Source: a virus. Taken from it: DNA of 21,130 nucleotides. Under the pieces are notes generated by a model. It saw only the letters and a program-made list of their open reading frames with translations, searched no databases and was not told the origin of the DNA. The translations under genes and the position numbers were made by a program. Positions 811-19,566 of the stretch are shown here, piece by piece (the first letter of the stretch is position 1; each line of letters begins with the position of its first letter). Where the stretch lies: the IMG/VR virus record IMGVR_UViG_3300009593_000150, positions 1 through 21,130 of that record; one strand, written 5' to 3'.

Positions 811-3800
811 GATCCCTCCAAATCCGCAACTCTTGTTGTTAATTCTTGAACTGCCTCAACGAGAACAGCCGTTAAAGAAGGGTAATCTAAAAGATAAGCA
901 CGACACCAACCATTTTCTAACGGTACAGCAGCATCATCTTTCATCACAGCGTTAGGGACAATATCCATAACTTCCTGAGCGACAAACCCATACTTTTTAC
1001 CACCTAATGTTTTCGGATCTTCAACCTCTAAACTGCTGTTAACAGTATTGAAAGTACGACCTCTCATGTTGTTAACCATCGCTAAAGCGCCAGTGATATC
1101 TTCAATGTTTGTTTTACGTCGCTCATCTGACGTATTGTAATTGCTTCCATCAATCGTAAGATCAACAGTAAAATCAGCCCCAGAACCACTTGGGTAAGAT
1201 GCCCAAGATTGATTTGAACCATGTATGCGAAACGTAGATTGAGAAGCCGAAGTAGAACCTGCTGCGTTTGAATTTAATACAGTGATCCCAGGTTGCCCCA
1301 TCCAGTTTCTATCTAGGAAAACACCAGCAGCGGCGAAACCGACAGCGCCATACTCTGTGTCGGAATCCCCTGTAGAATCATGTAGGTCAGAACCTAAACT
1401 AACTTTCATGCACTCGTTTGTGCCATTTACTTTGACAGAAACTACCCCATCAGAAGCAATGCGCATACGTTCAGAATCGTTAGAGATAAAACGGACATCA
1501 TGCGCTGAACTAGTTCCAAACAATGCAGTATTAGAACTATCAGAACCTATATAAGTAGTAGCCGTACCATTTAACGATCTAATATAAGCAGCCCCAGATG
1601 ATGCAACGACATCTAATCTGTTTGCTGACTCATCCCATAAAAGATGAGAACCAGCAGCGGCACCAAAGAACTTAACATCATGCCCAGTATCGTCAACCCC
1701 GACAGTCAGTGTTCCAACCATTGAAGTGTTGCCAGTTACGTCAAGCGAGCCAGTGACATCAAGTTGGTCTGCGGACTCATCCCACTCCATGTATTTTCCA
1801 GAAGTAGCGCCAAAGAATTTAACATCATGCCCAGTGTCATCAACGCCAACTGTTAAAGTAGATTTCAATACAGCGGCAGAGCCGTCATAAGTAAAGTTTG
1901 CTGACGAAGCGAATGCACCCGAAGAAGCATACTGAACCTGACCAGTAGCCCCAGCCGCCGCAGCAGAAGAAGCCCCAATCTCAACCCACTGATTACTAGA
2001 CCCATCAGCATAATAAACGAAAGTTTTACCAGTATCGCTTTCATACCAAAGATCACCAGCAGAAGGACCTGCTGGGGCAGTATCAGAAATAGATATACTC
2101 GCACCACCACCAGCGGCATTGATTCTGTCATCAATGGCTGCGCTAGTCATCAAGGAAGTGTCATTGTCGGCAAACGACTCACCAGAAGTTTGCACCGCTG
2201 TGATACCAACTGAATCAATCGTAACCGTACCAGACACGGTAAGAGCGCTAAGAGTGCCAACGCTTGTAAGCGAAGAAGTAACAACTGTAGATTTTAACTC
2301 TGTGCCAGTTAAGGTTCCTGCAGCAGCAGTAACCGTAATGGGACCAGTACCATCAAAATCAACGCCATTAATCGCCCTAGCAGTCGCTAACGCAGTAGCG
2401 GTAGCGGCATTTCCTGTAGTAGAGCCAGATGAACCGCTTACATTTCCTGTCACGTTTCCAGTTACATTACCAGTAACAGAAGTAGTAGTTAAAACACCTG
2501 AACTAGGGTTGTACGACAACCCAGTGTCAGTTTCTATTCCCTGAGAACCTGTCGCACCGTCCACAAAAGTAAGATAAACGGTTTCATCAGTACTGTTATT
2601 GGCTGTAGCAGTTACGTTAGTCGCAGTTGCGGCAGTAGTAGAAGTAGTAGCGTTACCAGATGTGTCTTGGTTACCAGTTGTATTTACACCTGCCAAATTT
2701 ATGTTTGCCGTACCATCAAAACTAACTCCGCCTATAGTCCTTGCAGTTTCCAAAGCAGTTGCTGTAGCCGCATTCCCAGTTGTTGAGCCAGAAGAACCAG
2801 AAGCGTTACCAGTGACATTTCCTGTAAGGTTTCCTGTCACGGAAGTAGTTGTCAACACGCCGCTACTTGGGTTGTACGACAACCCAGTGTCAGTTTCTAT
2901 ACCCTGCGAACCAGTTGCTCCGTCTACAAAAGTCAGGTAAACAGTTTCATCAGTAGAGTTGTTAGCAGTTGCTGTGACATTAGTGGCCGTAGTTGCAGTG
3001 GTAGCAGTAGTTGCATTACCTGAAGTGTTTTGATTACCAGCAGTGTTGACACCTGCTAAATCTATATTGCCTGTGCCATCAAAACTTACACCACCTATGG
3101 TCCTTGCAGTCTGCAATGCGGTTGCAGTTGCAGCGTTCCCTGTAGTTGACCCTGAAGATCCAGAAGTATTACCAGTAACGTTACCAGTCAAGTTTCCAGT
3201 TACAGAAGTTGTAGTGAGTACTCCAGAACTAGGGTTGTAACTAAGTCCAGTATCTGTTTCGATACCCTGTGTTCCTGTGGCTCCATCCACAAACGTCAAG
3301 TAAACAGTCTCATCAGTCGAATTGTTAGCAGTAGCCGTTACGTTAGTTGCTTCAGTTGCTGTAGCAGCATTACCTGTAGTAGACCCTGATGAGCCAGAAG
3401 TATTACCTGTTACATTTCCAGTCAAGTTACCTGTAACTGAAGTAGTGGTAAGAACTCCAGAACTAGGATTGTAATTTAACCCTGTGTCAGTCTCAACCCC
3501 TTGAGAACCAGTGGCACCATCTACAAACGTTAAATAAACTGTTTCGTCTGTACTGTCATTTGCGGTAGCAGTAACATTGGTAGCGGTTGTTGCAGTAGTT
3601 GCAGTTGCCGCATTACCAGTGATATTGCTATCTAAATAAGCAATAGTGCCTGAACCATCAGGTATTGTGACTGTCCGATCTGCAGTCGGATCAGTTACAG
3701 CGACAGTCGTTTCATAGTCATCAGCAGTTGCGCCTTCAAAAATTAAAGGGCTTGCTGCCGAAAATGTTGCAGAAGTTAACGAAATCGCTGAATCAAGATT

Positions 3801-5603: not shown

Positions 5604-7166
5604 CTACCTTAAACGTCTAGGGGTGTAAGTAAATGCTAAAGCATTCACTTCCCATGCCTTGTTTTCCGACCTTGGACCTTCAATCTTCATACTTATTGCC
5701 TGCGCTGTCCCGATTGTAGGTAATCTTTTCACATCAGTTATTGTCCCAGAGTCCCTAGCAGCCCATTTAGCAACATAACTAGAACTATCGTCATCATCAT
5801 CCCATTTAGCCGTATTCCACACAGAAGTAGAATCACGACCATCAATTACCACATCAAACGTCTTATAGGCTTCTGCTTTATCAAAATCACGGTAAACAGA
5901 AACGCCTAAAGTAATACTTGATTTAGCCAAAGTAATCATTCGGGGCTTACCCCAACGCTTTTTAACAACAGGATTTTTGGTAGCAATCCAAGGAGTAACA
6001 AAATGAGAATCAATATGGATATCAGTAGTCGCATACCTGTCAACAACCCTTGTAATGTCAGAATCCAAATATATAACTCTTCCAGTATTAGCCACACACC
6101 CTGAAGTCATATAAGGAGTAGAATTTGGAGGATTATACGCATACAGAGGGCCAGAGTCTATGTCGTGCATAGTCCAAGCGCCCCCTATTGAGGGGTCAAA
6201 CACAAAAACTCTACGAGTTGTCACTCCAGCGTCAGTCCAGTCAACAGACACATATAAACGGTTGTTGCCCCACGCTAACTGCGGTGGATTAGAAAAGGTT
6301 ATACGTCCATCATCAATAGCAGGTTTCAACTTTTCAAAAAGCCATTGGAACTTTTCGCCATCATATAAATAAACGCCTTCTTCAGCATGCCAAGTAAACA
6401 CCCCATAAGGTGTAGAAACAGGGCTTGATAAATCTACTGAACCGACAGAATTAGAAAGTTGTATAACTTGAAAAGAATCAGAGTCAAAACCAAGCAAAGC
6501 ATAAGTGCTGTTGTTTTTAAATATGACAAGCCGATCACCATGAGCAACCAAACCTGTTATCCAACCGCCTTGCTCGCCCTTGTCTATATCCACATAATCT
6601 GATGCAGCCCATTTCTCTGCATCGTTAAGATTCGACCAACGTAAGCGATACTTTTCACCGTAAATTTTACCGCACCATACAAAATTGTTCCAAGCGGCTA
6701 TATATTGCGCTTTGGGCATTTGCCCAGCAGCGCCAGTCATATTTGTTCCTAAATCCGCATCAGTGCTTCCATCCCATTTAAAAGAAACCTGATCGTAGGA
6801 AACACCATAAGCGACATTATTGAAAGTAGTTCCATACACTCTTGAACCATCAGTCCTGTTCGTTATATTAGTAAACTCGGTAAAGTTTCCACTAGCAGAC
6901 TGACCGACTTTAGTTCCATAATTTACCATTAACTGATTTGTGCCTCCATCAGTATGAAAACCCCAAATCCCTTTAACGTCAGCACTTAAAGCAGTATCGT
7001 TACGACGGTCAACACCTTGTCGCATCGCTACACCACCACGAGGGTCAACAGTAACATTTAACATGTCGGGAGATTCATTTTCAGCAAGATCAAACTGATC
7101 TGCTCTGAAATTCAAACCGCCTGAAAACGACTCCATTGTCGCTAACTTGAAGTCGCGTTTAGACAT
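5604..7166 (-). CDS. Beta-rich tail protein, nozzle/stabiliser-like
   Basis: 520 residues, almost all predicted beta strands, with repeated hydrophobic blades such as GLVAHGDRLVIFKNNSTYAL (about 208-227), followed by TPYGVFTWHAEEGVYLYDG and ARDSG. The N-terminus (about 12-60: SGGLNFRADQFDLAENESPD, then a DPRGG turn and RQGVDRRN) is typical of phage proteins of this position. The pattern fits the beta-propeller tail proteins of short-tailed phages (nozzle or packaged-DNA stabilisation proteins such as P22 gp10-like), which follow the adaptor ring and close the DNA channel. No specific catalytic residues are seen. It lies directly between the adaptor and the fibres, 3 bases before the first fibre. 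Family assignment is from fold pattern and context, not from a match. Confidence 0.7.
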   Translation of the reverse strand: MSKRDFKLATMESFSGGLNFRADQFDLAENESPDMLNVTVDPRGGVAMRQGVDRRNDTALSADVKGIWGFHTDGGTNQLMVNYGTKVGQSASGNFTEFTNITNRTDGSRVYGTTFNNVAYGVSYDQVSFKWDGSTDADLGTNMTGAAGQMPKAQYIAAWNNFVWCGKIYGEKYRLRWSNLNDAEKWAASDYVDIDKGEQGGWITGLVAHGDRLVIFKNNSTYALLGFDSDSFQVIQLSNSVGSVDLSSPVSTPYGVFTWHAEEGVYLYDGEKFQWLFEKLKPAIDDGRITFSNPPQLAWGNNRLYVSVDWTDAGVTTRRVFVFDPSIGGAWTMHDIDSGPLYAYNPPNSTPYMTSGCVANTGRVIYLDSDITRVVDRYATTDIHIDSHFVTPWIATKNPVVKKRWGKPRMITLAKSSITLGVSVYRDFDKAEAYKTFDVVIDGRDSTSVWNTAKWDDDDDSSSYVAKWAARDSGTITDVKRLPTIGTAQAISMKIEGPRSENKAWEVNALAFTYTPRRLR

Positions 7167-7172
7167 AATGAT

Positions 7173-7886
7173 TTACCAAATAACCCCACCAGTATTTGCA
7201 TAACGTAAAGATCCAAAGCCTGCAAGGTACCGAGTAGAAGAACGAGAATTAGCGATAATTGGTTGAGGGGCAGGCATGTCAGCGTATCTGCGGCCAACAT
7301 TGTCTAGTTCGATTTGGAATTGTTGCATGTATTGACTAGCCATTAAAGGATCTTCTTGCTGTAAATAGGCTTTTGCTAACCCATACGTTGTCAAAACAGG
7401 GTGGAAAGCATCAGGAAGATCAGGTTCAGTAGAATCTGTAGTTCCATCACCAAACGCTGTAGCGTTACGGACAGCGCGTACATGCACGGTATAAGCGAAA
7501 TCTGGAGAAGGATAAAAGCGTACCGTTTCGTTCCAGAAACTCCATTCCCAAGGTTCGCTTGACGATAAAACGTCTAGAGGATAATCGGCATCCGCTGCGT
7601 CATTACCGACATATTGTAAAACATGATCGTCGGTACGCATAGAAATTATTTCCCTCAATCCTTGCGTAACCGAAGCACCAATTGTGGCCAAAGTATAATC
7701 TTTGGTGCCAGCAACTGTATTAAAAGTAGTCAGAGTCTCGAAAAAAGGCCAGCGTTTTTCGCTGAAAACAATAGTGTCAAATCCTTGTCCGAGCATATTG
7801 TTTAAAACTGTGTCAGAAACATCAGTCGAATCAATATCTATAACGGATCGGATCTGATCACGCATTTGTTTTATTGTCATTCCCAT
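7173..7886 (-). CDS. Head-tail adaptor (SU10-adaptor-like)
   Basis: 237 residues. The N-terminal helices (KQMRDQIRSVIDIDSTDVSD, then LNNMLGQGFDTI) lead to a beta insert with the strand ETVRFYPSPDFAYTVHVRAV (about 118-137). A helical hairpin follows, PDAFHPVLTTYGLAKAYLQQ-EDP-LMASQYMQQFQIEL, the hallmark of phage adaptor proteins of the SU10/P22 gp4 type. These dock under the portal and extend the DNA channel. The start ATG overlaps the previous stop (TAATG). A second ATG two codons on is an alternative. The gene lies between a small Cys/His protein and the nozzle-like gene, the order expected for the connector. Confidence 0.8.
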   Translation of the reverse strand: MGMTIKQMRDQIRSVIDIDSTDVSDTVLNNMLGQGFDTIVFSEKRWPFFETLTTFNTVAGTKDYTLATIGASVTQGLREIISMRTDDHVLQYVGNDAADADYPLDVLSSSEPWEWSFWNETVRFYPSPDFAYTVHVRAVRNATAFGDGTTDSTEPDLPDAFHPVLTTYGLAKAYLQQEDPLMASQYMQQFQIELDNVGRRYADMPAPQPIIANSRSSTRYLAGFGSLRYANTGGVIW

Positions 7887-12365: not shown

Positions 12366-13034
12366 TCACACTGTCCCACGCGACAAGTGAGAACCGATTG
12401 TATCATCAGTTCGTGTGCCATTAGGTAATTGCCTCATCCACCAATTAAACGTACCAGTATCATCGACATTCTGCACGTATTCAGGAACATAAGCGTATTT
12501 TCTCATCTGGTTCGCTAACGCTAACGACATCACACGGTCATCGTAAGGGGAACCATTCATAGACCCACGATCATTGCGCACAAACGTGCGCAACTCAGCG
12601 ACAGTTGATTCACAATGCAAAATCAACTCATCGTTTTTCAACGCTCTAGCCAAATCATCAATCATCAACGGTTTAGAAGTACGAGTAGTTTTCCACCCAT
12701 ACTCTTGAGAAATCCTTTCATTAGATTGATTCAACGACCTGCGACGATACAAATTAGGATAACCCAATTGCCTAAGAACAGTAATCGTTGTCAAACCATG
12801 ATTGTTTGCCTCCACACAACAAAGAGCATTACCATACCAAATCCCTAAATTATATACTTCATGCGCCAACTCGTCAGGCGGTATACGGCCATGCCATATA
12901 GCGACCTGACGGCCTTCCTTGACATCTATAACCTGTATACAAGAATAATCGCCATGCCCTAAACCTTCAGCAGTATCAACACCTAAAACATACCCTGAGT
13001 AACGTTCAGGTTTCTCCCATACAGTTAAACTCAT
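12366..13034 (-). CDS. terL: Large terminase, nuclease half (split gene)
   Basis: 222 residues with the RNase H-like nuclease domain of large terminases. YVLGVDTAEGLGHGDYS gives the first acidic residue (Asp20), CVEANN the second (Glu75) and YDDRVMSLALA the third (Asp165/166). This part cuts concatemeric DNA at the start and end of packaging. In other phages it is fused to the ATPase in one chain. Here it begins with its own ATG in an ATGA overlap with the ATPase stop and has only a weak site upstream. The preceding codons in its frame contain TAG, so it is not simply an extension of the ATPase frame. All catalytic acids are present, so it does not look decayed. Confidence 0.9.
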   Translation of the reverse strand: MSLTVWEKPERYSGYVLGVDTAEGLGHGDYSCIQVIDVKEGRQVAIWHGRIPPDELAHEVYNLGIWYGNALCCVEANNHGLTTITVLRQLGYPNLYRRRSLNQSNERISQEYGWKTTRTSKPLMIDDLARALKNDELILHCESTVAELRTFVRNDRGSMNGSPYDDRVMSLALANQMRKYAYVPEYVQNVDDTGTFNWWMRQLPNGTRTDDTIGSHLSRGTV

Positions 13035-13918
13035 GTTCTAAACTCTAAGACGTTCGGTTGAAGTACGTGGAGATATCCCTCCACGCCCTGTCGAAAATGC
13101 ACAGACATACCATTAAGAACGTCAAGATCAAAGACAGGATTCCCAGAACGAACAAATGCCTCTTCGGGATCGGTTGGGTACTCTTGAGCGAGTTGCCAAG
13201 GCAACATCGAATCCTTTTTACCTTCATACCAAGAATTATCCCTATCTTCCGAAGCCGACCAAGGAAAAAACATAGCATCAAACTTATTATTCCCCGTGGA
13301 CGCACCATTCCATAACTGATGAAAAAAATTACCTGAACCATTAGCAGTAGATAGCCCAATAATGCGGCCACCAACATCGGCAACAGGCTCAATAGAAGCC
13401 CAAGCCTCTTCAGGGTTCGGCAAAAAAGCCCATTCATCCACCACGATGAGCGTCGCAGACTCGCCACGCGCAGGATCAGATGCCGAAGGCATCGACGTAA
13501 TTTGTGAACCATTCTCAAACCCCATTCTCTGCTGATGCTCAACAACAGATTTAGGTCCACGCTCTACCAACCATTCAGGCAAATGCTTAAAACCGTATTT
13601 TGTCTTTTTTAACAAAAGCACAGATTCACGCTCTGTACGCGACAAATCAATAATGTTTTGATCATCATTAAAAAAAGCAAGCCAAAATTGGTGAGCCGCC
13701 ACCAAAGTAGACCAACCAATCTGTCTAGCCTTTAACGTTAAAGAATAACGATTATTGTCCCACCGATCTAACGCTTGAGACTGCGCATCTCTCAATTCAA
13801 ACAGAATGCGCCCATGAGCAGGATGAGCAATATGCCAATAATTTTGTAAAAAATATTTTTCATCACGTTGACATTTACGCCATTCTGCTTCTTGGCGCAA
13901 CTCTGTTAAACGACTCAT
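13031..13918 (-). CDS. terL: Large terminase, ATPase half (split gene)
   Basis: 295 residues forming the packaging motor ATPase. The deviant Walker A is KARQIGWST (63-71): the usual GK lysine is Trp, and Lys63 sits at the front as in lambda gpA. Walker B is LIVVDE (157-162, Asp161/Glu162), and the coupling motif is GLSTANG (188-194). The chain continues through PWQLAQEYPTDPEEAFVRSG, typical of the end of the ATPase domain, and stops at LEFRT just where a linker to the nuclease would normally follow. The nuclease is encoded by the overlapping next ORF. GAAAG upstream of the ATG is a weak ribosome site. With the small subunit it forms the motor on the portal. Confidence 0.92.
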   Translation of the reverse strand: MSRLTELRQEAEWRKCQRDEKYFLQNYWHIAHPAHGRILFELRDAQSQALDRWDNNRYSLTLKARQIGWSTLVAAHQFWLAFFNDDQNIIDLSRTERESVLLLKKTKYGFKHLPEWLVERGPKSVVEHQQRMGFENGSQITSMPSASDPARGESATLIVVDEWAFLPNPEEAWASIEPVADVGGRIIGLSTANGSGNFFHQLWNGASTGNNKFDAMFFPWSASEDRDNSWYEGKKDSMLPWQLAQEYPTDPEEAFVRSGNPVFDLDVLNGMSVHFRQGVEGYLHVLQPNVLEFRT

Positions 13919-14216: not shown

Positions 14217-14275
14217 TTAGCCTCTACTTTCCTATTTCCTACATTAAAAGCACAATTCGTCCCGACAAAAAAGAC

Positions 14276-16334: not shown

Positions 16335-16355
16335 CTATATCCTATAAAGGGGTGG

Positions 16356-16406
16356 TACTTAGTAAACGTTCTCCTAGCCTCAAGCGTCGGAGAACGGTAC
16401 TAGGTA
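16356..16406. promoter_or_regulatory. TACTTAGTA sites with enclosed hairpin
   Basis: TACTTAGTA (16356-16364) and a one-mismatch inverted relative TACTAGGTA (16398-16406) flank CGTTCTCC (16367-16374) and GGAGAACG (16389-16396), which pair perfectly around 14 bases. With TAGTA/TACTA the stem reaches 13 pairs. The same 9-mer recurs near 16565, so these look like related protein-binding sites. Confidence 0.5.
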
Positions 16407-16492
16407 CAAAATAATATCGCATACAGTTCACCAAGACGTTAAAAACGAAACGCACTGTCCCTTCATATCTATACATACATACATGCACGTGC

Positions 16493-16537
16493 CCCACCCC
16501 CCCCAAGGGGGTGGGTATGCGTAGGTGCGTGCACGCA
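16493..16537. repeat. GC-rich hairpin and 12-bp palindrome
   Basis: CCCACCCCC (16493-16501) pairs with GGGGGTGGG (16507-16515) around CCCAA, within an 8-C run. TGCGTGCACGCA (16526-16537) is a perfect 12-base palindrome. On either strand this could block transcription between the two promoters, but no U-run follows. Confidence 0.5.
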
Positions 16538-16564: not shown

Positions 16565-16588
16565 TACTTAGTACTTTAGTACTAAGTA
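16565..16588. promoter_or_regulatory. Perfect 24-base palindromic operator-like site
   Basis: TACTTAGTACT (16565-16575) and AGTACTAAGTA (16578-16588) are perfect 11-base inverted halves with a TT centre. The outer TACTTAGTA matches the site at 16356. Size and symmetry suit a dimeric repressor. Confidence 0.6.
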
Positions 16589-16745: not shown

Positions 16746-16796
16746 TTGGGGGGTATTTTTTCCCCCTCATTTATGAGGGGAAAAAATACTCCCCAA
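16746..16796 (+). promoter_or_regulatory. Leader stem-loop 1 (conserved hairpin family)
   Basis: About 24 base pairs. Left arm 16746-16770, loop TT (16771-16772), right arm 16773-16796. TCAT/ATGA closes the loop, then CCCC/GGGG with C16762 bulged, TTTTTT/AAAAAA, GTA/TAC, a G-T pair, GGGG/CCCC and TT/AA. It is followed by CCCAGAAAGGAAAAATT and the ATG at 16814. No U-run follows, so it is not a classical terminator. Confidence 0.85.
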
Positions 16797-16813
16797 CCCA
16801 GAAAGGAAAAATT

Positions 16814-16984
16814 ATGAGAAAATTGGTGAGTTTTTTACATCACTTGGTTATTGAGTTCGTTGAACTTCAACCAAGTGAACGTTTGTGGAGTGCCTACGGC
16901 AGTCGGTTTGAGCATCAAGGTCAGACTTTTTGGGACTGGGCGTACTACACTGCCGAGCGCATAGACAGGAAGGTGCGCATATGA
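16814..16984 (+). CDS. 56-residue early protein, unknown
   Basis: First rightward gene. MRKLVSFLHHLVIEFVELQP, then SERLWSAYGSRFEHQGQTFW, then DWAYYTAERIDRKVRI. An amphipathic start is followed by an aromatic-rich middle. No family recognised. AAAGG lies nine bases upstream, after leader stem-loop 1. The coding DNA itself folds: CACTTGG (16841-16847), TTGAGTTC (16851-16858), a GTT loop and matching right arms to 16877 give a 15-pair stem. The stop TGA overlaps the ATG of a 31-codon leader ORF (ATGA at 16981-16984). Likely an early takeover protein by position only. Confidence 0.7.
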   Translation: MRKLVSFLHHLVIEFVELQPSERLWSAYGSRFEHQGQTFWDWAYYTAERIDRKVRI

Positions 16985-17076
16985 GATTTTCGGTTAAATT
17001 AGCCGAATTGGGGTGTTTTTCCCCCTCATTTATGAGGGGAAAAACTCCCCACCAATTGACTTGGAGGTCAAATTGA
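16981..17076 (+). CDS. 31-codon leader ORF spanning stem-loop 2
   Basis: ATG 16981-16983 overlaps the previous stop (ATGA), has a strong AGGAAGG site seven bases upstream (16967-16973), and reads MRFSVKLAELGCFSPSFMRG and on to its TGA at 17074-17076. That TGA overlaps the TTG start of the next gene (TTGA). The whole of leader stem-loop 2 lies inside it, so a translating ribosome would unfold the hairpin. It may be a regulatory leader peptide rather than a functional protein. Confidence 0.45.
   Translation: MRFSVKLAELGCFSPSFMRGKTPHQLTWRSN
17008..17051 (+). promoter_or_regulatory. Leader stem-loop 2 (conserved hairpin family)
   Basis: Same plan as stem-loop 1: TCAT (17026-17029), TT loop, ATGA (17032-17035); CCCC/GGGG with C17021 bulged; TTTTT/AAAAA and a G/C pair; a T-T mismatch; GGGG/CCCC; T/A. 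About 19 pairs. The outer variable part is shortened equally on both arms compared with stem-loop 1. The next gene's GGAGG lies 12 bases after it. Confidence 0.85.
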
Positions 17077-17606
17077 GAACATTAGAAATTTCTGAAGCCG
17101 AGGCTTCAGCATTGGTGAAAGTTGCAGGACGGATATCTGCAATTGACACTAGTGTCAACACTGTTACGTCCATATCCGAAACAGCAGTTCCTGCTGAGGA
17201 AAGTGTGATTGAGTCTGTGTCTGCTATAGCAGATGTTGATAACATCGTGGTTGTTCCTGTGAGTTCGGCATCTTCGATGCCTACTTTCGCTGCTTCTGTA
17301 CCTTCGGTACAAGAGGTGTTGGAGGCTACGCCTTCTTTGGCTAAGGTGTCACCTGAGGCTGCTAAGGCTTCTGCTAAAGCAGAACGTAAGGCTGCTAATC
17401 AAGCGTTGAACGCTAGGATCAATGCTCAGTTGGCTAATGCCACTAAGGCACATGATGCTGGTGATCCTGCAAGGGTTGCTGAAGCGTTGAATGCTGCTAT
17501 GCAGTTAGTTCCGACTCGTACAAACAAGGACGGATCGCTTACATGGAGGTCTACAGTTGAGCGTATAATCGCCAAGGCTGAAAGCCTTGAAGCGGTTAAG
17601 GCTTAA
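17073..17606 (+). CDS. Ala-rich early protein, unknown, hairpin-dense coding DNA
   Basis: 177 residues from TTG 17073-17075, chosen because GGAGG (17063-17067) lies five bases upstream; an in-frame GTG at 17013 falls inside the hairpin and lacks a site. The protein is RTLEISEAEASALVKVAGRI, then a Ser/Val/Ala-rich, probably flexible middle, then a basic helical C-terminal part (AERKAANQALNARINAQLAN, about 108-127; then GDPARVAEALNAAMQLVPTR and a final STVERIIAKAESL). No family recognised; the C-terminal half could bind nucleic acid or form helical bundles. The coding DNA contains ten perfect inverted repeats with 6-8 bp arms and 0-4 base loops. Translation is probably coupled to the leader ORF. 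Confidence 0.75.
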   Translation: MRTLEISEAEASALVKVAGRISAIDTSVNTVTSISETAVPAEESVIESVSAIADVDNIVVVPVSSASSMPTFAASVPSVQEVLEATPSLAKVSPEAAKASAKAERKAANQALNARINAQLANATKAHDAGDPARVAEALNAAMQLVPTRTNKDGSLTWRSTVERIIAKAESLEAVKA

Positions 17607-17608
17607 CC
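17092..17608 (+). repeat. Cluster of ten perfect small hairpins
   Basis: Inverted repeats (start, arm, loop): 17092 CTGAAGCC loop GA; 17143 TTGACACT no loop; 17182 CAGCAG loop TTC; 17221 CTGCTA no loop; 17232 GATGTT loop GAT; 17267 GGCATC loop TTC; 17297 TGTACC loop TTC; 17369 TTCTGC loop TAAA; 17573 CAAGGCT loop GAA; 17594 GGTTAAG loop G. All arms match perfectly. Confidence 0.85.
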
Positions 17609-17610
17609 AT

Positions 17611-17656
17611 TTGGGGTGTGTTTCCCCCCTCATTTATGAGGGGGAAACACTCCCCA
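17611..17656 (+). promoter_or_regulatory. Leader stem-loop 3 (conserved hairpin family)
   Basis: Third copy: TCAT (17630-17633), TT loop, ATGA (17636-17639); CCCCC/GGGGG with C17624 bulged; TTT/AAA; GTG/CAC; a T-T mismatch; GGGG/CCCC; T/A. About 21 pairs. Downstream CACAACAGAAAGGAAAAAAT before the ATG closely matches the sequence after stem-loop 1, so hairpin plus ribosome site repeat as a unit. Confidence 0.85.
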
Positions 17657-17674: not shown

Positions 17675-18127
17675 ATGAATACACGATTAGACGAACGGCA
17701 CCCGTTCGATATACCTGTGGCACTTTGTGCCCCAAAGGTACGTCCAGTACCTGTTGTGCCTGATCACCGTTCGGTGATTGAGAACGCCTATTTTGACAAG
17801 CGTTACACGCTTGGTGAGTGGGAGTTGCTTCGTATGTTGGGCTACGATGCGGCTCGTGTTGTGCTTGAGGAGTTCACTGATCCTGTGGATCGTGAGATAC
17901 GCAAGCCACGTGCTACATCATCATACGGTCCTGAATGGTACGACTCTCAGACATTCGATCTAGAGGCGTACAGGACAGGGCAGGTGCATGCTTATGGCAT
18001 GCTTAACAGAAACCTCGTAGAGGTTGAAGATACTGTCGTTGTCGCAGACGACGATGATGATGATACAGGCTTAGATGCTGGTGTGGACACAGATACGCAT
18101 CAGTGGTTGCTTGGTGTAGCGGTTTAG
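17675..18127 (+). CDS. Early protein with acidic C-terminus, unknown
   Basis: 150 residues from ATG 17675-17677 with AGAAAGGA upstream, after leader stem-loop 3. An upstream in-frame extension through the hairpin is unlikely because it lacks a site. Sequence: MNTRLDERHPFDIPVALCAP, a Pro/Val region, a helical centre with YTLGEWELLRMLGYDAARVV, an aromatic stretch (YGPEWYDSQTFDLEAY) and a run of Asp (DDDDDD) near the end. No family recognised. Acidic tails of this kind occur in DNA-mimic or partner-binding phage proteins, which is only an analogy. The coding DNA also holds perfect hairpins: 17692 CGAACGG loop CAC, 17763 ATCACCG loop TT, 17797 CAAGCGT loop TAC, 18011 AACCTC loop GTA. Confidence 0.75.
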   Translation: MNTRLDERHPFDIPVALCAPKVRPVPVVPDHRSVIENAYFDKRYTLGEWELLRMLGYDAARVVLEEFTDPVDREIRKPRATSSYGPEWYDSQTFDLEAYRTGQVHAYGMLNRNLVEVEDTVVVADDDDDDTGLDAGVDTDTHQWLLGVAV

Positions 18128-19027: not shown

Positions 19028-19298
19028 ACACGTTTTCTATAACGCTACGTACACTGCGCATGGGTCTAAGATTAGACAACATGCGTTGGGTTGTAGTTGG
19101 GTTAAAGTTGAGGCTTACGGTGATGACGATTCTCCGTTGGGCAACATGCATCGTTGGGTGATCCGTGCGGTTCATGATGCTCCAAGCATGGCTGAGATTG
19201 GTGAGACTATTGCGCAGTTGGGTGGCTTGTGGGGTGAGTTTTCCTGTGAGTGTGAGATTCTTGAGACTTCGTGTGATGTGTCTGGAGAACTAATTTGA
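19020..19298 (+). CDS. 92-residue early protein, unknown
   Basis: Starts ATG 19020-19022 (MSEHVFYNATYTAHGSKIRQ) with GGAG six bases upstream, inside the end of the previous gene. A mixed alpha/beta protein with HRWVIRAVHDAPSMAEIGET and Cys-containing strands near the end (FSCECEILETSCDVSGELI). No family recognised. It ends the first early cluster; about 270 bases of structured non-coding DNA follow. Confidence 0.66.
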   Translation: MSEHVFYNATYTAHGSKIRQHALGCSWVKVEAYGDDDSPLGNMHRWVIRAVHDAPSMAEIGETIAQLGGLWGEFSCECEILETSCDVSGELI

Positions 19299-19312
19299 TG
19301 CGGTTGGAGTTT

Positions 19313-19370
19313 AACCCCCCATTTTATTTTTAATTGAATGAAATGAAATTAAAAAGAAAATGGAGGGGTT
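19313..19370 (+). terminator. Long imperfect stem-loop after early cluster
   Basis: About 22 pairs: AACCCC/GGGGTT, CC/GG (one A bulged at 19364), ATTTT/AAAAT, one A-G mismatch, TTTTTAATT/AATTAAAAA, with an 11-base loop 19336-19346. The weak A/T inner stem and lack of a U-run afterwards make it an unusual terminator; an RNA-processing site is equally possible. Confidence 0.6.
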
Positions 19371-19474
19371 GAGAGGCTCCGAAGTTTTGGTTGGGCGTGA
19401 AGAGGTAGCCCATTAAATGTTACCTGTTTGTCCAAGCGTGTAAGCGTTTCAGGGCATATAAACACAGCCATTTG

Positions 19475-19531
19475 GGGGTTGTGCAGGGTTGTGGTCTTTC
19501 ATATTTCCACTCCTTTCCCCTGCGCAACCCC
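19475..19531 (+). promoter_or_regulatory. 14-bp stem with 29-base loop in the leader
   Basis: GGGGTTGTGCAGGG (19475-19488) pairs with CCCTGCGCAACCCC (19518-19531), 14 pairs including one G-U. Inside the loop GTGG (19491-19494) can pair with CCAC (19507-19510). A stable leader of this size 35 bases before a gene suggests post-transcriptional control. Confidence 0.6.
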
Positions 19532-19566
19532 TGTTACATATATATACAAGCATTGGAGGTGCTTAA

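Follow-up and report, generated by a model that had tools for sequence, protein, structure and literature searches.

A family of leader hairpins before early genes, conserved in pairing and free in sequence, in a lineage of uncultured phages

Why should the first three early genes of a phage each be preceded by a strong stem-loop, and is it the sequence of these stem-loops or their pairing that is kept? The question is raised by a viral stretch of 21,130 nucleotides (IMG/VR record IMGVR_UViG_3300009593_000150, positions 1 to 21,130; hereafter the window), in which a preliminary description made from the letters alone had placed three such elements. Repeat search and folding agreed with it, and its coordinates were right to within one base; the three stem-loops (16746-16796, 17009-17051 and 17612-17656) were grouped as repeat family D13, with copies 81% identical. 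The features of the region, all on the + strand, are these:

16746..16796, +, class A leader hairpin 1, TTGGGG-G.U-GTATTTTTTCCCC-(bulged C)-TCA-TTTA-TGA-GGGG... (direct reading, repeat search, folding)
16762..16766, +, C-run of hairpin 1, including the bulged C (direct reading, folding)
16814..16984, +, early gene 1, 56 aa, SD AAAGGA, ATG start; no family match
17009..17051, +, class A leader hairpin 2, beginning 24 nt past the gene 1 stop (direct reading, folding)
17073..17606, +, early gene 2, 177 aa, SD GGAGG, TTG start; relatives in many contigs
17612..17656, +, class A leader hairpin 3, beginning 5 nt past the gene 2 stop (direct reading, folding)
17675..18127, +, early gene 3, 150 aa, ATG start; no family match
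19311..19372, +, class B hairpin, stem-GAAT-GAA-ATGA-stem, the fourth hairpin of the window (folding and motif)

RNA folding gave energies of -35.4, -27.7 and -33.5 kcal/mol for hairpins 1, 2 and 3 (z-scores of -6.1, -4.7 and -5.3), and none of 200 shuffles folded as well. The shared cap, first drawn as TCAT-TT-ATGA, is indeed common to the three copies, but it is better represented as UCA-UUUA-UGA with a 4-nt loop. The bulged C was likewise present in all three; its supposedly fixed place was not upheld, since the MFE and centroid structures disagree on its exact position within a C-run that exceeds the G-run of the 3' arm by one C (17021-17025 and 17624-17629 in hairpins 2 and 3). The outer GGGG/CCCC pairs were found as described; between them and the variable stem, copy 1 has a G.U and copies 2 and 3 have a U.U mismatch, a detail that had gone unmentioned. 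The variable segments of the three copies are complementary, as had been stated, and the ribosome site regions after copies 1 and 3 are nearly identical, both reading AGAAAGGAAAAA..ATG; hairpin 2 is followed by CTTGGAGGTCAAA-TTG. Between the end of the hairpin and the start codon lie 17, 21 and 18 nt in copies 1, 2 and 3 (starts at 16814 ATG, 17073 TTG and 17675 ATG).

Relatives were found by an exact search of viral contigs for the 18-nt hairpin top, which revealed a set of contigs carrying the same hairpin in multiple copies each; the contigs read were G002, G003, G005, G009, G011, G012 and G013, and searches with the terminase and with DUF932 led to 80 and 43 loci, respectively. Lone occurrences of this 18-mer in contigs that seem unrelated (L053, L055-L058) did not enter the statistics on gene families and covariation: by judgement rather than calculation, chance could produce them, so numerous are phage hairpins. 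The hairpin carriers constitute a lineage of uncultured, mostly marine podovirus-like phages of bacteria. In near-full-length contigs the late strand encodes the terminase, the portal, the capsid and a protein of 2,821-2,826 aa, and the early strand many small genes followed by an exonuclease, a DnaB-like helicase and an AEP-type primase. The terminase of G013 is 93% identical to that of the window; no near relative was found among phage records, where the best terminase match was 55% identical. In a single MAG contig, labelled Acidimicrobiaceae, the terminase is 81% identical, a weak hint that the host might be a marine actinobacterium, perhaps of the Acidimicrobiia.

Two features of the late strand are worth recording. 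The large terminase is split in two ORFs, at 12366-13034 (-) and 13031-13918 (-) of the window, with ends overlapping by 4 nt, one of them the ATPase part of 295 aa and the other the nuclease part of 222 aa; the same split occurs in G011-G013, within an amino acid or so, and the 55% identical terminase of MW202803 is one ORF. The giant late protein (G011 26462-34936, G012 27317-35797 and G013 27594-36059, all on the - strand) has conserved ends and a poorly conserved middle, its least conserved part; neither Pfam nor PDB yielded a convincing match to it, and of two weak matches in PHROG one is to a tail fibre family.

The claim of three copies before three genes was accurate for these three, but the set is wider, with a fourth member of another class in the window and up to 11 hairpins per related IMG/VR contig. 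Class A comprises a variable stem, CCCC, a bulged C (sometimes two), UC, the loop, GA, GGGG and the complementary stem. In class B the variable stem is closed by GAAC-GNA-GUGA or GAAU-GNA-AUGA; one way to draw this cap is with tandem G.A pairs and two Watson-Crick pairs below a GNA triloop. The bulged C under UC..GA is kept across class A copies while stems and loops change, and in class B GAAC-GNA-GUGA is constant with a covarying Y-R closing pair; both sets were collected by cap, so that this constancy is partly by construction, and the stems were not searched for. Stems are 14-27 pairs long, with a median of 21 in class A and 24 in class B, and near-identical stems recur within one genome. 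All 41 motif-found hairpins (classes A and B, seven contigs) lie on the early strand within the early region, and none on the other strand.

No family of Rfam 15 was matched at its gathering score, and a search for class A among 50,697 phage records gave no convincing match, the only hit being weak and partial (E = 4). Class B hairpins with an SD and a start downstream were also detected in contigs unrelated or distantly related to this lineage (L198, L208, L209, L211, L215, L250, L255, L257, L258, L294 and L302, some with 2-3 hairpins each), 'unrelated' here meaning that no relation was detected in the available parts; that of L198 adjoins an anti-restriction gene. Class B core matches lacking a downstream start codon, one of them under a DUF1376 gene, were set aside as probably coding.

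That pairing itself, and not sequence alone, is kept had been proposed from three copies, and covariation among the hairpins of relatives bore this out at scale. In a set of 32 distinct hairpins of class A, each of the eight lower-stem pairs changed on both sides, and 98.4% of cells pair, against 50-64% in slid controls; the covariation score was 0.566, compared with 0.136 for shuffles and 0.08-0.15 after sliding. Watson-Crick pairs numbered 134 of 140 in class A (permutation mean 63.6, maximum 92; 0/10000) and 166 of 168 in class B (permutation mean 80.4; 0/10000), and swapping arms between hairpins abolished pairing. The four inner C-G pairs of class A are invariant and hence uninformative on covariation. 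Compensatory hairpins before orthologous genes, whose absence from relatives would have refuted the proposal, were present. The conserved feature of the family is thus its pairing, not its sequence. G.U pairs are rare in the stems, and a comparison of G.U with A.C mismatches leaned weakly towards RNA in one count only; selection on a DNA palindrome rather than on RNA pairing is possible.

Placement was similarly regular. In class A, 60 of the 73 hairpins are followed by a start codon with an SD, and in class B 29 of the 32, at a median distance of 24 and 30 nt, respectively; many hairpins begin no more than 26 nt past the preceding stop codon. When the class A sites are read the other way round, only 16 of the 81 are followed by such a start. 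The gene behind the hairpin varies freely: 89 hairpins precede 34 gene families, the stem TATTTAA alone precedes 13, and one gene family takes several stems and both hairpin classes. The hairpin is independent of the gene that it precedes and behaves as an interchangeable leader cassette. Gene order differs as well, being g1-g2-g3 in the window and g3..g1-g2 in L060. Most relatives of gene 2 have a strong hairpin just before the start, often of unrelated sequence: it is of class A in the window and of class B in G013, L060, L049, L152 and others, the exchange in G013 having occurred in a close relative, and L066, L067 and L113 have other caps. At this one gene, then, the structure was kept while the sequence was replaced outright. 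The SD lies inside the 3' arm in L066, L067, L113, L144, L152, L089 and L141. The hairpins of L066 (about 1660-1723), L067 (about 3493-3558) and L113 (- strand), in which the 3' arm holds the SD of the gene-2 relative, have about 25 bp, and each is preceded by a second strong hairpin. Together, these results identify a real, structurally conserved and gene-independent family of leader hairpins in an uncultured phage lineage.

The class B hairpin of the window is an exception in placement, as no start codon comes directly after it: it begins 12 nt past the stop of a gene ending at 19298, and the next gene (19567) starts 194 nt downstream. A 235-nt intergenic stretch that includes this hairpin is kept in three relatives (window 19304-19540, L051 17760-17965, L060 near 6670-6800), where it also contains a second conserved structure, GGGG..TTGTGGTCTNNCATATTNCCACTCCTTT..CCCC, with AGGGYATATAAACACAGCC before it; the stretch is possibly a non-coding RNA.

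What might the hairpins do? They had been taken for shared control elements of the early genes, a reading that our results support, with RNA as the probable level of action. No U-run was found after the hairpins (T makes up 16-20% of the next 10 nt), in agreement with the earlier view that plain termination is unlikely, and no promoter-like hexamer pair was found on the + strand between 16300 and 18800; on both grounds the hairpins most likely lie inside early transcripts. The spacers between stop codon and hairpin 2 or 3, of 24 and 5 nt, leave no room for a promoter, and their shortness suggests that the genes are transcribed as one mRNA. Common to the copies is a near-perfect duplex, about two helical turns long, that stands between stop codon and SD. 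The unrelated stems before gene-2 relatives fit recognition of a duplex better than recognition of a sequence, and the SD within the 3' arm in several relatives implies that translation would need the stem to be cut or opened.

T7 served as a yardstick: its early RNase III hairpins, located by what we take to be the cut positions, were folded in the same way, the R1 hairpin not being cleanly recovered. They have 21-25 pairs, end 9-16 nt before the start (101 nt for R1.1) and are offset from the preceding stop by -6 to +19 nt. This match in size and placement led us to propose processing of the RNase III type. As with the T7 sites (R0.3, R0.5, R1, R1.1, R1.3), the hairpins stand before the first gene and between early genes, and they share with those sites a stem-loop of about 20 or more pairs between early cistrons, close ahead of the next ribosome site. 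At T7 RNase III sites an asymmetric internal loop directs a single cut; in contrast, the hairpins described here have no such loop, only a one-base bulge (class A) and 1x1 mismatches, and some other RNase III substrates lack it too. Unlike the T7 hairpins, with their internal loops and other sequences, these combine a near-perfect stem with either a bulged C or a GNA cap and occur in as many as 11 copies.

With structure, covariation, strand, placement, gene independence and class swapping as the observations, we infer an action in RNA in which the hairpins would serve as leader hairpins and sites of intercistronic mRNA processing in early operons, cut by the host RNase III much as T7 messages are; we prefer this reading and consider it about equally likely to be right or wrong. 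Each hairpin would form part of the early mRNA, lying either in its leader or just past a stop codon and in both cases just ahead of the ribosome site of the following gene, and its duplex of about 20 bp would be recognised by the double-strand-specific RNase III of the host. A cut in the stem would divide the polycistronic early RNA into messages the size of single genes, each with a short and open 5' leader, and half-stems would stay at the message ends as at T7 R0.3, R0.5, R1.1 and R1.3; in the versions that pair the SD, it would also free the SD. The cap (the bulged C under UC..GA in class A, the tandem G.A pairs and GNA triloop in class B) may stabilise the stem or determine the cut. For RNase III, however, the conserved caps are not a requirement, which counts against a plain RNase III reading and suggests an additional factor. 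We advance more tentatively, as something that may well prove otherwise, that this is an undescribed family of phage RNA elements with at least two interchangeable caps, a common host or phage reader, a role as universal gene-independent early leader and a GNA class in other lineages.

Several phages of actinobacteria have been described as carrying inverted repeats ahead of early genes, with no known role. The ESAS of cluster K mycobacteriophages are intergenic inverted repeats that immediately precede the ribosome sites of many non-structural genes, imperfect and of 17 bp, with a genome-wide sequence consensus, beside the 13-bp SAS GGGATAGGAGCCC (PMC3203893); those of Adephagia contain a SigA-like promoter within the repeat (PMC11373665). 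Inverted repeats of 18 bp in Microbacterium cluster EG and of 17 bp in cluster O mycobacteriophages, and others before early genes of cluster EF Microbacterium phages, are also on record (PMC7302621). The window hairpins resemble the ESAS in being inverted repeats in gaps before ribosome sites of non-structural genes. They differ in that their stems vary between copies and genomes with pairing kept, whereas ESAS keep their sequence within a genome; moreover, the window has no SAS in the interval from hairpin to start, and no SigA-like promoter was found. The cluster EG repeats are one conserved sequence, GATCAACCNNGGTTGATC, and much shorter, compensatory stems not being reported for them. As judged from the published descriptions, the free sequence with compensatory change distinguishes the present family from both ESAS and cluster EG repeats.

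In T4-type phages, the PeSL (promoter-early stem-loop) cassettes join a terminator stem-loop to an early promoter, and a role in gene shuffling has been proposed for them (Arbiol 2010 and Comeau 2014, cited in PMC4503421). As far as that description of PeSL goes, the likeness lies in a cassette repeated before many small, shuffled early genes, and the difference in that no promoter-like pair and no U-run terminator accompany the hairpins here; the missing U-run also sets them apart from an intrinsic terminator. The lack of promoter and terminator features distinguishes the family from ESAS and from PeSL as so described. The anatomy of the repeats of actinobacterial phages recurs here in an abundant uncultured lineage, with compensatory change clear enough to show that pairing, not sequence, is conserved; this makes a role testable with synthetic hairpins, and the hairpins themselves form a natural set of interchangeable, gene-independent leader elements.

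The hairpin could instead be an RNA operator whose cap is recognised by a phage or host RNA-binding protein controlling translation or stability of all early messages at once. The class A bulged C under UC..GA, kept despite changing stems and loops, the constant GAAC-GNA-GUGA of class B with its covarying Y-R closing pair, and the multiple copies per genome, all on the early strand, would suit an operator, and T4 gp43 and gp32 provide the precedent that phage proteins can use leader hairpins in this way (PMC3014915). However, orthologous genes have two unlike caps, and others besides, at one and the same position, the constancy of the caps is in part a product of how both classes were collected, and no candidate RNA-binding protein was identified. 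The unlike caps make a binding site for one specific phage protein less likely than the preliminary description had it, and we regard the operator reading as unlikely.

Long, very stable stems placed directly between stop codon and SD, and independent of sequence, would also be expected of an uncut structural barrier, either an insulator against the passage of ribosomes or exonucleases or a 5'/3' stabiliser of early messages. We consider this quite unlikely, as deleting the hairpins in silico barely altered the predicted openness of the ribosome sites in the window, and the SD-sequestering versions would block their own gene.

A third alternative places the function in DNA, with the palindromes acting as homologous joints by which small early genes are shuffled or copied between phages, any role in RNA being secondary. 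It recalls the mobile palindromic unit suggested earlier, of which one part stands, namely the same hairpin before many unrelated genes and a varying gene order; different hairpins before one family and near-identical stems within one genome would agree with it too. However, every hairpin faces its gene in one and the same direction, behaving as a leader cassette rather than as a freely moving palindrome; all are on the early strand, at a precise distance from the SD, they conserve imperfections (the bulge) that palindrome correction would remove, and the unrelated stems at orthologous places offer no homology to recombine on, which makes such joints very improbable.

N4 promoter hairpins carry a C(GNA)G triloop, and this triloop in class B, together with the giant late protein, prompted us to consider promoters of the N4 type, on which a T7-like RNA polymerase encoded by the phage would act; this candidate was set aside as improbable, as the giant protein showed no conserved RNA polymerase motif and no convincing Pfam or PDB match. 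A PF00940 search of four contigs was empty but uninformative, its control being silent as well. Any promoter or terminator element, whether of the N4 type, an ESAS-like sigma promoter within the repeat (Adephagia ESAS contain SigA-like hexamers; PMC11373665) or a U-less intrinsic terminator, is hardly credible, given that no promoter-like pair lies on the + strand near the hairpins, the giant late protein has no RNAP-like match, the tails are A-rich with no U-run, and a terminator ahead of gene 1 would silence the operon.

Other palindromes surround the divergent early-late region. Those of the TACTTAGTA/TACTAAGTA type (window 16355-16407 and 16565-16588; G012 14223-14274 and 21263-21329) flank or form terminator-like hairpins around it in many relatives. 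Ahead of the early operon, the divergent region of the window also holds a strong GC-rich hairpin, CCCCACCCCCCCCAAGGGGGTGGG, at 16482-16531, and a similar one is found in G002 at 7308-7359.
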